Below, piece after piece: positions 4,778 through 46,771 of a DNA stretch of 64,000 bases (positions are counted from its first letter, which is position 1; every line of letters starts with the position of its first letter). Under the pieces are notes generated by a model that worked only from the letters and a program-made list of their open reading frames with translations, was not told where the DNA came from and made no database searches. The stretch covers positions 1 to 64,000 of IMG/VR virus record IMGVR_UViG_3300040751_000875. One strand, given 5' to 3'. A program made the translations under genes and the position numbers. Source of the DNA: a virus.

Positions 4778-5143
4778 ATGAAATCATTTAACGAATACAA
4801 TGAAGGTAAATTATCGGATATTAAAAAGAAATTATCCAAGATAAAGGGCCTTAAGGCAGACCAATTACAAGTATTGCAAAGTTTGCCAATGCCTGTTATT
4901 ATCTCTATTGTAAATCAGTTAAGTATGATAGTATCTGATACAGAATTACAAGAGGCTCCTTTGGTAATGAGCCATGCTGATATATTAGATACTATATGGA
5001 AAAAATTAAAACCAAATTTGGAAAAAGAATTAGGGAAAGGTAAAGTAGAAACAGTAAATAATCTTGCACGTATGGTAAAATATAAAGTGTCTACTAAGGG
5101 ACAACAGAAAGGTCGTTCATACAGATACGATTTAAAGAAATGA
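4778..5143 (+). CDS. Hypothetical protein with MKSFNEY leader
   Basis: 121 aa. Begins MKSFNEYNEGK, sharing the leader with its neighbours; a possible protease site is N-E/G at residues 9-10. The remainder is helical and charged, ending YKVSTKGQQKGRSYRYDLKK. The segment SHADILDTIWKKLKP may be a small helical domain. Start is one base after the previous stop and the end overlaps the next gene by 4 bases. No function recognised; grouped with the putative head-internal proteins by its leader. Confidence 0.65.
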   Translation: MKSFNEYNEGKLSDIKKKLSKIKGLKADQLQVLQSLPMPVIISIVNQLSMIVSDTELQEAPLVMSHADILDTIWKKLKPNLEKELGKGKVETVNNLARMVKYKVSTKGQQKGRSYRYDLKK

Positions 5144-42894: not shown

Positions 42895-42919
42895 GGGGGA
42901 CTTCGGTCCCCCTTTTTTT
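42895..42919 (+). terminator. Strong rho-independent terminator after gp32
   Basis: GGGGGAC, TTCG tetraloop, GTCCCCC, then seven T. UUCG-capped GC stem with U-tract: near-ideal terminator. It separates gp32 from the converging minus-strand genes; the reverse orientation lacks a T-tract. Confidence 0.95.
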
Positions 42920-44783
42920 ATCTAGTGGCGTTTGCCTCTCTAGTTTTATTAGGTTTGGGTGGATTCATAATAACGGTATCTCCACCTCTAGTTTGTGAAT
43001 TGTTTGTAGCAACTGATACGTTACTTGCAGCTTGTTGTCCACCGGCCATTCTAAGGTCTACATTTTCTGCTGATACATTCATTAGCCCTACTCCAGTAGT
43101 ATTTTGATTTGCATCTATTGATGTACCATCTGGGGTGTCCATATTTAACACACCCTTCAGCCTATTAATGTTCAATACCGCTTGTTCTACATCATCAGAA
43201 ATCTTTGCAAGACCTTCTACTTTAAAGTCATTGAACATGCCACCAATTTCTACTTTACCGCCCATAATGACGGTTTCTAAAATCTTGGAAGATGTGGCTA
43301 AATCTGTGGCAAACTTTTCGGCATCAAACTCGACACCACCAATACCATTAAATCGTTCTACCGAATCGGCAAATCTTTCAAATGCATCAACACCTTTATT
43401 AACGGTATCTGCATTCTCTCCTAAATGGATTGCAGATTCTATAGGGGATTTATTACCACTTAAAAAGTCCAGTGCTGTAGAGGCTGCATTGGCTAGAGAA
43501 CCTACGAATGAACCCCCACCAAATGCGGCAAGTCCTGCACCTAATGCTCCTAGTGCAAGTACTGTTTCATCAATCTTGTCTATATTTCCCAGACCACCTA
43601 TTGAAAGTAAAGTAGCAACTTCATTCTTAATTGATTCTCCACTCATCACTCCATCGCCGATTCCTGCAAAGAATGAACCAACGCCAAAGGCCGCAAGTCC
43701 AGTACCTAATGCAGTTAATGATCCTACTGCCTTAGTTACTCCTTCTCCTGTTGCATTTGGGTCTTCTGCAATAGAAAGTAAATGGCCAACTGTTTCACGT
43801 ATTGCCTCTCCCTGGCCTTCGTGTGAACCTTTTGCAAAGAATGCACCTACTCCGAATTTAAGTAATCCACCTGATAAGGCTCCTAAATCATCAGAAACTG
43901 CTTGACCTGATCCTAAATTAGGATCTTGTGATATAGAAAGTAGTGTTGCAACCGAGTCTTTTACCTCTTGTGCCTGAGTTGCACTTGCTGCATTTGCAAA
44001 GAATGATCCAATACCAAAGGCAACGAGTCCAGTTCCTATAGCGCCAAGAGTACCGAATACTCTTAAAGTATCTCCTTCTTTACCTGGCAATTGAGCAATA
44101 CTTAAATATGTGGCTACTGCCTTCTTAACTTCCTGTGCAGTGTCATCAGAAGCGGCCTTTGCAAAGAATGACCCTATTCCAAATGCAGCGAGGCCAATGC
44201 CTATTGCACCTAGTGTTCCCATTACTCTTAAGGCATCACCTTCTTCGCCTGGTAATCTAGAAATTTCTAATAGGTCTTTTACATTAGCAACAATCTTTTT
44301 GCCATCCATCTTTTCTAGTGTATCAAGTAAGAATGCACTAGAGGCAAATACTGCTGCTACACCTGCAGCTGCTGCACCAACTCCGATACCTGCACCACTA
44401 AGTAGTTTACCTACCCCGGCCATCTTACCACCGCCTGAGTCACCACCAGAAGATGAGCCACTATTTTCTGGTATACCAGAAGACCTCATGGCCTTTAATT
44501 CATCACGTATTTCTTCAAAGATACTGGCTCTTTCAGTGGCCTTTTCTTGGTCTGACAATTTATTTGCATTCATTGTCTCGAAGAAATTATCAAATCCTAT
44601 ATTAACCCTATCACTCATTTCCAAAGAGGCTTGTTGGATCTTTTTCATCTCCAATAAGTGTCTTCTTGTATTTCTACCATCACGCTCAATCTCGCTAGTC
44701 GCACGATTATTCTCGGTCATGAGTTCTACAAGTTTAGATAAACTTTGCTCTTCTTTATTCGGTGGTGTAGGATTATCTTTCAT
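42918..44783 (-). CDS. Repetitive hydrophobic tail tape-measure-like/structural protein
   Basis: 621 aa. N-terminal coiled coil (about 10-100), Ser/Gly linker, then an Ala/Gly hydrophobic run (VGAAAAGVAAVFASSAFLLD). Five tandem modules of about 45-60 residues follow, each with LLSI-like helix, GALG-x-GLAAFG-x-GSFFA. C-terminal part has beta-like segments. Repeats with periodic hydrophobic helices fit a tape measure or a central tail component; T4 gp29 similarity is not visible to me. End of a minus-strand baseplate/hub block. Adjacent to the strong terminator on the other strand. Confidence 0.55.
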   Translation of the reverse strand: MKDNPTPPNKEEQSLSKLVELMTENNRATSEIERDGRNTRRHLLEMKKIQQASLEMSDRVNIGFDNFFETMNANKLSDQEKATERASIFEEIRDELKAMRSSGIPENSGSSSGGDSGGGKMAGVGKLLSGAGIGVGAAAAGVAAVFASSAFLLDTLEKMDGKKIVANVKDLLEISRLPGEEGDALRVMGTLGAIGIGLAAFGIGSFFAKAASDDTAQEVKKAVATYLSIAQLPGKEGDTLRVFGTLGAIGTGLVAFGIGSFFANAASATQAQEVKDSVATLLSISQDPNLGSGQAVSDDLGALSGGLLKFGVGAFFAKGSHEGQGEAIRETVGHLLSIAEDPNATGEGVTKAVGSLTALGTGLAAFGVGSFFAGIGDGVMSGESIKNEVATLLSIGGLGNIDKIDETVLALGALGAGLAAFGGGSFVGSLANAASTALDFLSGNKSPIESAIHLGENADTVNKGVDAFERFADSVERFNGIGGVEFDAEKFATDLATSSKILETVIMGGKVEIGGMFNDFKVEGLAKISDDVEQAVLNINRLKGVLNMDTPDGTSIDANQNTTGVGLMNVSAENVDLRMAGGQQAASNVSVATNNSQTRGGDTVIMNPPKPNKTREANATR

Positions 44784-44786
44784 TTC

Positions 44787-44909
44787 TTATTCCTTATCTT
44801 TAAATCGGCTATCTATCCAACATTTTCCGTAGTATATAATACCTAACCAAACGGTAAGAACAATGCCATCAAAGTAACTTAGATTATTTAATTCTGCTAA
44901 ACCTTCCAT
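44787..44909 (-). CDS. Very small membrane protein (40 aa)
   Basis: ATG at 44909 overlaps the upstream HAD gene stop (TAATG). MEGLAELNNLSYFDG, transmembrane IVLTVWLGIIYYGKCWI, then SRFKDKE. No family known. Stops three bases before the tape-measure-like gene. Confidence 0.5.
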   Translation of the reverse strand: MEGLAELNNLSYFDGIVLTVWLGIIYYGKCWIDSRFKDKE

Positions 44910-45517
44910 TATTTTATCCTCTTTACATTACCATTTTTATCAGCCAAATAGGCAAACATTTCAACCTGTGGATATTTACTCTTTAAATCCAACAAAGCTT
45001 GTAAATTTTCTTTATGGTCATCAAACAATCTGACCCTTGCATATTCACCTGTATCTAAATACTTTTTAAACACTACTGTTTTATTTTGTGCGCTGTTTCC
45101 ACCACCAATATTACCAGCTCTCTCAACATAAACATTTTTCATTGGTATTCCATGTGATTCAAATGTTTTGATAAAGAGTTTTTTATCGTCCATGTCTGCT
45201 CTTGCAGTAACGATAATCACTTTACTACCTTTTGCTGTGGCATTTTTAATTATTGCCTTTGCTTTTGCAATCATTCTTGCGATTGGAGTTGCTGTTTGGT
45301 AGAATATTTTGGCTGATTTAAATTCACCAAAATCATATTCCTCTTGGTTACTTAATTTATAATCATTGAACTGTTGAGGAGTTAATGGTTTTGTTTTACC
45401 AGTAGTTTTGTTTTTAACCAATACACGAGCTTTTGATACAAACATAGTATCATCAATATCAAAGATTGTTAAACCTTTGCCTGCAGCTTCTATAATGTAT
45501 TGTTTAAAACTTTGCAT
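44909..45517 (-). CDS. HAD-family phosphatase with capsid-targeting-like leader
   Basis: 202 aa. N-terminus MQSFKQYIIEAAG carries an IIE/A site after Glu10, exactly as in T4 IPIII. Catalytic FDIDDTMF gives Asp20 and Asp22; motif II VIIVTARAD; VRLFDDHKENL is motif III/IV. The phosphatase set is intact. Could be a 3'-end or nucleotide phosphatase delivered with the DNA. It lies in a structural gene block rather than in the main leader cluster. One-base overlaps with both neighbours. Confidence 0.8.
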   Translation of the reverse strand: MQSFKQYIIEAAGKGLTIFDIDDTMFVSKARVLVKNKTTGKTKPLTPQQFNDYKLSNQEEYDFGEFKSAKIFYQTATPIARMIAKAKAIIKNATAKGSKVIIVTARADMDDKKLFIKTFESHGIPMKNVYVERAGNIGGGNSAQNKTVVFKKYLDTGEYARVRLFDDHKENLQALLDLKSKYPQVEMFAYLADKNGNVKRIK

Positions 45518-45843
45518 TATTTCTTACTCGAAAATGCCTGTGAACCAAAGAATGCGGCCACAATACCTGCAACGGCTACAAAATAAGTTGCCGCCATATC
45601 TCCTAGTATATTACTTGCTTGTTCAAGTCCTGCCAATACTGCGATAACAACTGCAAATGGATATAATAACATCCCACCTAGGGCAAACCATGCCATTTTA
45701 CGTTGTGCATCTCGCATTGCATCTGCATCTTCGAGTTCTTTTCTTTTGAACTCCATATACATTTCTTGTTCTTTACGAGAAACTTTGCCGTCACCATTTG
45801 TATCAGCTGGATGATGACCACTTGCCTTAATTTCTTCTTCCAT
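45517..45843 (-). CDS. EF-hand protein with two membrane helices
   Basis: 108 aa. DTNGDGKVSRKE at 14-25 is a canonical EF-hand calcium loop. A charged helix and two transmembrane segments follow, at about 50-70 (FALGGMLLYPFAVVIAVLAG) and 83-101 (MAATYFVAVAGIVAAFFG). Similar small membrane proteins exist in marine phages. Could be a calcium-sensing holin or tail-associated protein. Adjacent to the frameshift product of gp26. Confidence 0.7.
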   Translation of the reverse strand: MEEEIKASGHHPADTNGDGKVSRKEQEMYMEFKRKELEDADAMRDAQRKMAWFALGGMLLYPFAVVIAVLAGLEQASNILGDMAATYFVAVAGIVAAFFGSQAFSSKK

Positions 45844-46040
45844 TACATACCTCTATAACCCGTTTTGGATTTATGTTTTAAATTTTCTTCCTCTATATGT
45901 TGTTTTAAAAGGGCAACATATATTTGCCTCTCCCATGGTATCATACCTTCTAATTCAGTCAACCTATATCCATGATGTTGCATTAATGCAAAATTAGTTT
46001 GGTAAAAATTTTCCAAACTTTCATGTGAGAGGCCTATGAA
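45843..46040 (-). CDS. Second frame of gp26, probably made by -1 frameshifting (G/GT-like)
   Basis: 65 residues in the -1 frame relative to gp26: FIGLSHESLENFYQTNFALM, EGMIPWERQIYVALLKQHIE. No SD or good start codon exists in this frame. It begins exactly where the T-run at the gp26 end allows a shift. LTELE-MIPWER-IYV-LL resembles the T part of tail-assembly chaperones. Product: a gp26 C-terminal extension replacing the last two residues. Confidence 0.65.
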   Translation of the reverse strand, partial: FIGLSHESLENFYQTNFALMQHHGYRLTELEGMIPWERQIYVALLKQHIEEENLKHKSKTGYRGM

Positions 46041-46753
46041 AAAAAACTATTCAGTCCTTTCAGTTCGACCTCATTCACTGTTTTACACTTATTACAAGTA
46101 AACTCAGTATAGTATGATACTGCTGGAGTATCTTGGAAGAATGCCTGAACCAACTTAAACTGTTCTGAACTTAGACTTTCAATGAATTCTTCCAAATCTT
46201 CTTTGGTTTCATTCTTTGCATCGAACACATTATCATCATCAAAGATAGAATCAATACACTCTATAATTAAATCCATAATTCCTTCAACAGAATTAAATTT
46301 TTCTGGATTAATTCTTCCAATTGTGTCAACAGATGGGTATTTCATTTTAATACCAACACCTTGTTTCTTATCAAGGATAATGGTATCACTCATTTCTTTT
46401 TCAGGTTTAGAGATAACCACATCATCTATGTTAACAGAAATAGGATTCATTGTTCCACATTCTTCTGTCTTGCATTTGATTTGGATATTCATTTCTTCTC
46501 CAACAGACTTTGCTCTTAGTTGTAAAAACAACATTTCGATATCAAAGACTGTTAAATTATCTAATGTATCCAATTCATAACAAGACTTGATGATATTTCT
46601 AACTGCTTGAGTTATCTGTTCGGGGTCATTCGACTCCAAGGCAATCATCAGTACCTTTTCTTCTTTTACCAAATATGGTCTCATATTTAATTTGGCTCCA
46701 GTAGAGGGTAATTCAACCGTATACCGAGGCACATTCATTTTTGGTAATGCCAT
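46034..46753 (-). CDS. 26: Baseplate hub subunit gp26
   Basis: 239 aa. MALPKMNVPRYTVELPSTGA, MRPYLVKEEKVLMIALES, VRNIIKSCYELDTLDNLTVF and a C-terminal FTCNKCKTVNEVELKGLNSF. CKTEECGTMNP and CNKCK could bind zinc. This matches gp26 of T4-like marine phages. The 3' end carries a slippery T-run feeding the next frame. Start is preceded by AGGAGAATATA. Confidence 0.8.
   Translation of the reverse strand: MALPKMNVPRYTVELPSTGAKLNMRPYLVKEEKVLMIALESNDPEQITQAVRNIIKSCYELDTLDNLTVFDIEMLFLQLRAKSVGEEMNIQIKCKTEECGTMNPISVNIDDVVISKPEKEMSDTIILDKKQGVGIKMKYPSVDTIGRINPEKFNSVEGIMDLIIECIDSIFDDDNVFDAKNETKEDLEEFIESLSSEQFKLVQAFFQDTPAVSYYTEFTCNKCKTVNEVELKGLNSFFS
46040..46046 (-). other. Putative -1 ribosomal frameshift site T TTT TTT
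   Basis: In gp26 frame the codons read AGT TTT TTT TCA TAG, so the heptamer fits X XXY YYZ in the right phase. Shifting -1 gives TTC ATA GGC and an open frame of 65 codons to 45843. The stop is only one codon beyond the slip site, which would favour pausing. Confidence 0.65.
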
Positions 46754-46771
46754 TATATTCTCCTAATTATA

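Follow-up and report, generated by a model that had tools for sequence, protein, structure and literature searches.

Phage lambda makes a short tail assembly chaperone, gpG, and a longer form, gpGT, which is extended by a −1 frameshift close to the 3' end of the short gene. Both products coat the tape measure protein, the T part recruits the tail-tube protein, and neither product is part of the virion (PMC5009743). The same 2016 review named T4 as an exception to G-T frameshifting. The chaperones of T4-like phages are the subject of Vladimirov, Gautam & Davidson (2022, Virology 566:9-15), which we know through the PRFect paper (PMC10274946) and the phage Adele paper (PMC12846349). Both papers credit that study with the finding that in some T4-like phages a fused long gene accompanies a short one; the Adele paper also credits it with poly-T as the −1 signal in the TAC-N genes of T4-like phages. 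In the TAC genes of Pakpunavirus and Vandenendeviridae, a different phage family from the one studied here, the −1 frame is likewise conserved and a GTTTTT motif is conserved at the end of TAC-N (phage Adele; PMC12846349). The dnaX gene of E. coli has a three-part layout of upstream Shine-Dalgarno (SD) stimulator, slippery heptamer, and downstream stem, and many IS elements also employ a 5' SD stimulator (PMC5009743). Finally, cyanophage gp51 was described as being without its first ~200 residues (Sullivan et al., 2010, PMC3037559); a search of its main text by term gave no mention of frameshifting.

Here we consider a T4-like phage with marine relatives, represented by a 64,000-nt stretch of DNA (the window) that is most of a 65.6-kb virus record. 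We assign a probability of about 0.92 to the reading that one locus in the window encodes short and long versions of a G/GT-like tail assembly chaperone, with the long form arising by −1 frameshifting on T TTT TTT. The original prediction, which proposed this pair, knew of no such description for T4 gp26. That statement has been overtaken: according to the two papers above, Vladimirov et al. (2022) had already identified tail assembly chaperones in T4-like phages. Going by those papers, frameshifting in the chaperone is itself a known trick, reported for T4 relatives, and the window is a further case.

The chaperone gene and its slippery site

The short form is a gp26 homologue of 239 amino acids on the minus strand (46034..46753), as are the other features of the locus. 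It matches the T4 gp26/gp51 family profiles PF12322 (2.7e-62) and phrog_150 (2.4e-67). An SD sequence, AGGAG (46760..46764), lies 6 nt ahead of its ATG (anti-SD energy of −7.0 kcal/mol), and its TAG stop is at 46034..46036. AlphaFold gave a confident model (mean pLDDT of 93) from an alignment of the window and the fetched IMG/VR loci only, and the best BFVD match in a fold search was a baseplate hub assembly chaperone (E = 1.3e-19). In the comparison to the HK97 gp13 fold, the HK97 chaperone (2ob9) was below significance in a fold search of the PDB (E = 2.5, probability 0.35), and a sequence search of gp26 against solved structures gave no relevant match.

A tail-tube-like gene (phrog_45) lies immediately upstream of gp26. 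On the other side, a 621-aa ORF (42918..44783, minus strand) is a tape-measure candidate by position only, with no convincing match in Pfam, PHROGs, or NCBIfam; ORFs of 576-742 aa with weak similarity to it occupy the same position in relatives. We rejected this ORF as a homologue of T4 gp29 (hhalign probability of 9.8%, not significant). Between the chaperone and the tape-measure candidate is a gene for a 202-aa HAD/polynucleotide-kinase-like phosphatase (phrog_415; 44909-45517, minus strand). A 108-aa ORF (45517-45843, minus strand) has an EF-hand-like DTNGDGKVSRKE motif and hydrophobic stretches, and Agrobacterium phage OLIVR6 has a similar motif, DTNHDGRISPEEF, after its chaperone.

The gp26 gene ends with CTG AAA GGA CTG AAT AGT TTT TTT TCA TAG. 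The heptamer T TTT TTT (46040..46046) is in phase and one codon ahead of the stop, and it is part of a run of eight T's (46046-46039). As in G/GT-type pairs, a short ORF thus carries an in-phase slippery heptamer close to its 3' end; the difference from lambda is that the slip site is T TTT TTT with an upstream SD-like tract. In the long ORFs of the window, with ~17,800 codons, T TTT TTN occurs in phase three times. Because only the site in gp26 has both a stop close by and a long −1 extension (188 nt), this combination is not due to chance. The sole other slippery-type site in the window with a long extension is T TTA AAG, one codon before a stop at 5131 (plus strand). We rejected it as a frameshift, as its long −1 frame is an ordinary overlapping neighbour gene at 5140. 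An Rfam scan of the locus gave no match above gathering.

The −1 frame and the gp51 domain

Reading in −1 from the heptamer yields FIGLSHESLENFYQTNFALMQHHGYRLTELEGMIPWERQIYVALLKQHIEEENLKHKSKTGYRGM. The resulting frame of 65 codons (45846..46040, with its stop at 45843..45845) matches phrog_634, which is gp51 or "baseplate hub assembly catalyst" (8e-27), and positions 235-280 of phrog_150 (8.3e-07). It corresponds to the C-terminal (T-like) domain of gp51. The motif MIPWER at codons 33-38 (45927..45944) has a counterpart, MIPAER or MLPVER, near the end of T4-type gp51. The end of gp26, the in-phase heptamer, and a 65-codon frame with MIPWER were all in the original prediction, and their coordinates, frames, and codons are correct; the identity of the second frame as the gp51 domain goes beyond that prediction.

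To compare relatives, we used 240 fetched IMG/VR loci and junctions from isolates, which gave 248 junctions with a recognisable downstream frame, including the window. From these we took 105 representatives (<75% identity), which were picked as heptamer-bearing junctions, yet no −1 junction was dropped for want of a heptamer. Selection was tested over codons 4-18 of the −1 frame, which are mostly beyond the gp26 stop and ahead of Met20. Across 1,957 pairs, pn/ps was 0.25 in the −1 frame, versus 1.27-1.45 in the other two frames. None of the 105 representatives has a stop in this region in the −1 frame, while 105 and 98 of them do in the other two frames. These comparisons indicate that selection at the protein level acts on the −1 frame from immediately after the gp26 stop, at codons that precede any usable start.

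Could the second frame instead be an independent short gp51 gene? Most database records give gp51 its own CDS, and the window frame does contain candidate starts ahead of MIPWER, a TTG at codon 9 and an ATG at codon 20, that could be used by coupling or re-initiation. However, codons 4-18 are upstream of Met20 and are under selection. Also, the anti-SD energies of the two codons are −1.5 and 0 kcal/mol, so the window has no SD for the second frame, as the original prediction had it. The same holds on average for the representatives: the candidate internal starts have a mean of −1.05 kcal/mol, which is weaker than random positions (−1.42), in contrast to −5.0 for gp26 starts. Nor are these starts conserved. 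Within the first 19 codons, ATG is absent from 59 of the 105 representatives, and 34 lack ATG, GTG, and TTG altogether. An independent gp51 would also leave the invariant heptamer unexplained. Also in its favour is Synechococcus phage S-SCSM1 (discussed below), which resembles a separated pair with its own ATG. Overall, we consider a separate gp51 gene to be very unlikely. The second frame, which is open, protein-coding, and without a start signal of its own, as in G/GT-type pairs, is very probably translated from the slip.

In public records such as L095, L096, L098, and L081, gp51 is annotated as a separate small CDS that starts at an internal codon, and the gp51 of P-HM2 is given just 30 codons. 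The small CDSs in public records are probably fragments of the frameshift product, and the part that is missing from cyanophage gp51 is gp26.

Conservation of the slip site and its surroundings

The −1 geometry is present in 247 of the 248 junctions, and none of these 247 lacks an in-phase T TTT TTN in the overlap. In every representative, the codon ahead of the first Phe ends in T (105 observed, whereas the codon use of each gene predicts 63) and the first Phe codon is TTT (105 observed, 78 expected). The corresponding probability products are 6e-26 and 8e-16, which assume independent sequences and so overstate the strength of the result. The second slip codon alternates among TTC, TTT, TTA, and TTG, so that the amino acid changes while T TTT TT is kept. 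Because the T-ending codon and TTT are invariant while the amino acid of the second slip codon varies, the heptamer is selected as a nucleotide sequence.

The isolates that bear the cassette include cyanophages, Pelagibacter phage Mosig, Methylophilales phage Melnitz, Vibrio PG216, Pseudomonas Astolliot, Rhizobium N34, Agrobacterium OLIVR6, and Nitratidesulfovibrio SRB7757. (A search with the Nitratidesulfovibrio gp26 as the query found no relatives.) For five divergent isolates with no tblastn match to the downstream domain, we read the junctions by eye. Xanthomonas X1, Citrobacter Ci1, and Variovorax V45v66 combine T TTT TTC with an open −1 frame. Menlow and Vibrio 1.244.A, both from the Ackermannviridae, have an open −1 frame with MPWH-type motifs and no canonical heptamer. 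In the two Ackermannviridae loci (L092, 3780-3990, and L093, 3660-3890), the −1 extension stays open past gp26 and carries an MPWH-type motif, with ATT TTC or CTT TTT at the junction. The T run and the downstream frame, whose conservation the original prediction had proposed to check, are kept across highly diverged T4-like phages. It had also named relatives with the two frames joined, or separated without a slippery run, as evidence that would count against it. The frames are joined only in T4-type gp51, which is a paralogous long form, and T4 gp26 has no slippery codons. Clear separation of the two frames was seen in one case, S-SCSM1 (L083, 3960-4030). This phage keeps T TTT TTC, but its junction is longer by ~8 bases and includes a GATCCATATGGATC palindrome, which puts the downstream frame in +1. 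Its junction reflects either a genuine separation into two genes or an artefact of sequencing.

Upstream of the heptamer, by 8 nt, is an SD-like purine tract, AAAGGA (46055..46060). In the representatives, the 8-mer that begins 15-17 nt ahead of the heptamer hybridises to the anti-SD better than in synonymous shuffles (at −15, a mean of −5.6 versus −4.6; z of about −8.7). Initiation is not the cause of this tract in the window, as no start codon follows it at SD spacing. It is a conserved signal and a putative stimulator, placed upstream of the slip as in dnaX. Downstream, 20 nt past the heptamer, there is a possible stem, AGTTTGG...CCAAACT (45996..46019), whose role is uncertain. Across the relatives, folding is enriched from +10 to +52 (mean z of −1.8 to −1.9, versus −0.3 to +0.1 for control windows). 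Relative to permutation of synonymous codons within columns, z was −9.9, which is an overstatement because the permutation breaks shared ancestry. The stems differ from clade to clade. In the L228-L260 clade, there were 11 double-change cells versus 3.7 in shuffles (0 of 500 shuffles), with one slid control near the same covariation score. In the window's own clade, RNAalifold predicted 7 pairs, of which 0 are compensatory and none shows a double change, and we do not claim a conserved hairpin there. Compared to dnaX, then, the layout in the window differs in that the shift leads to a longer product, the heptamer is made of T's, and the stem is only a candidate.

A second alternative is transcriptional slippage: the polymerase would add or drop U's at the T run, and normal translation of the edited mRNAs would give the fusion. 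The window's eight T's are close to the runs of about nine A's or T's that are known slippage sites in bacteria (PMC5009743). However, the run is just six T's in 81 of the 105 representatives and seven in 8 of them. The run also keeps one fixed position relative to the codons (xxT TTT TTN), which Phe codons favour too, and the SD-like tract and downstream structure suit ribosomal pausing better. We view slippage by the polymerase as marginally less probable still than a separate gp51. Third, homopolymer runs are error-prone and both parts form one protein in T4 gp51, but the idea that a sequencing or assembly error split one gene is negligible, given that the same split occurs in hundreds of contigs and in isolates from very diverse phages, mostly with six T's and with differing flanks.

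Ribosomal frameshifting to a long chaperone is supported because the heptamer is invariant, the −1 frame is selected, and the internal starts have no SD. Counting against it, in E. coli T TTT TTT is reported to shift less readily than A AAA AAG (PMC5009743). Other points against it are the downstream pairs of the window's clade, none of which is compensatory, the +1 frame of S-SCSM1, the two Ackermannviridae without a canonical heptamer, and the tape-measure neighbour without homology support. As for how the locus would work, we infer the slippage and its rate as follows. The majority of ribosomes would halt at TAG to give the short form, gp26, with 239 amino acids, and a minority would slip by −1 on T TTT TTT to give a long form of 303 amino acids, with gp26 followed by the C-terminal domain of gp51. 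The SD-like tract, and in many relatives a downstream stem, probably pause the ribosome at the slip. By analogy to lambda G/GT, the expected role of the domain that is common to both forms is to coat the tape measure protein, and that of the extension is to bring in tail-tube subunits.

The two forms in T4 and in its relatives

T4 gp26 and gp51 belong to the same protein family and are short and long forms, with the same C-terminal domain on the long form as in the window phage. Both match PF12322. T4 gp26 (208 aa) covers positions 14-235 of phrog_150, which is only the first part of this joint profile, whereas T4 gp51 (249 aa) covers positions 13-280, the whole of it, and also matches phrog_634. 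The two genes are on opposite strands. From these profile spans and strands, the short form in T4 is gp26 and the long form is gp51, encoded by two paralogous genes, and gp51 is the joined long form as a single protein; the window phage instead has one gene and a −1 frame. T4 gp26 retains an EFF motif in its protein sequence, but the codons are GAG TTC TTT, which are not slippery. This suggests a reason for the T4 exception: T4 makes the same two products from two genes.

In an unrooted tree, all of the N-domains of gp51-type proteins form one group (support of 100/99), 6 of the 7 duplicate gp26 proteins cluster weakly, and the frameshift users form one group with the Ackermannviridae (98/97). 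As the tree is unrooted, it is the wide distribution of frameshifting that leads us to infer that duplication replaced frameshifting.

T4-like phages are abundant in marine environments, and annotations still present their gp51 as a tiny "baseplate hub assembly catalyst" of its own, truncated because it begins at an internal codon. The fusion is probably the correct product. In the literature that we examined, with Vladimirov et al. (2022) represented by the papers that cite it, we found neither a description of the SD-like tract nor one of how widespread and nearly invariant T TTT TTN is, and that study may cover part of this. The upstream SD-like signal is a candidate stimulator that is open to direct test.

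More broadly, we lean slightly toward the view that in phages with a T4-type gp26 outside of the T4 lineage proper, frameshifting is the general route to the long chaperone, by one three-part cassette (an SD-like tract, a near-invariant T TTT TTN, and clade-specific stems), and that the T4 lineage swapped in a gene duplication. If so, then slippage was lost in the T4 lineage, which left the two forms open to separate tuning.
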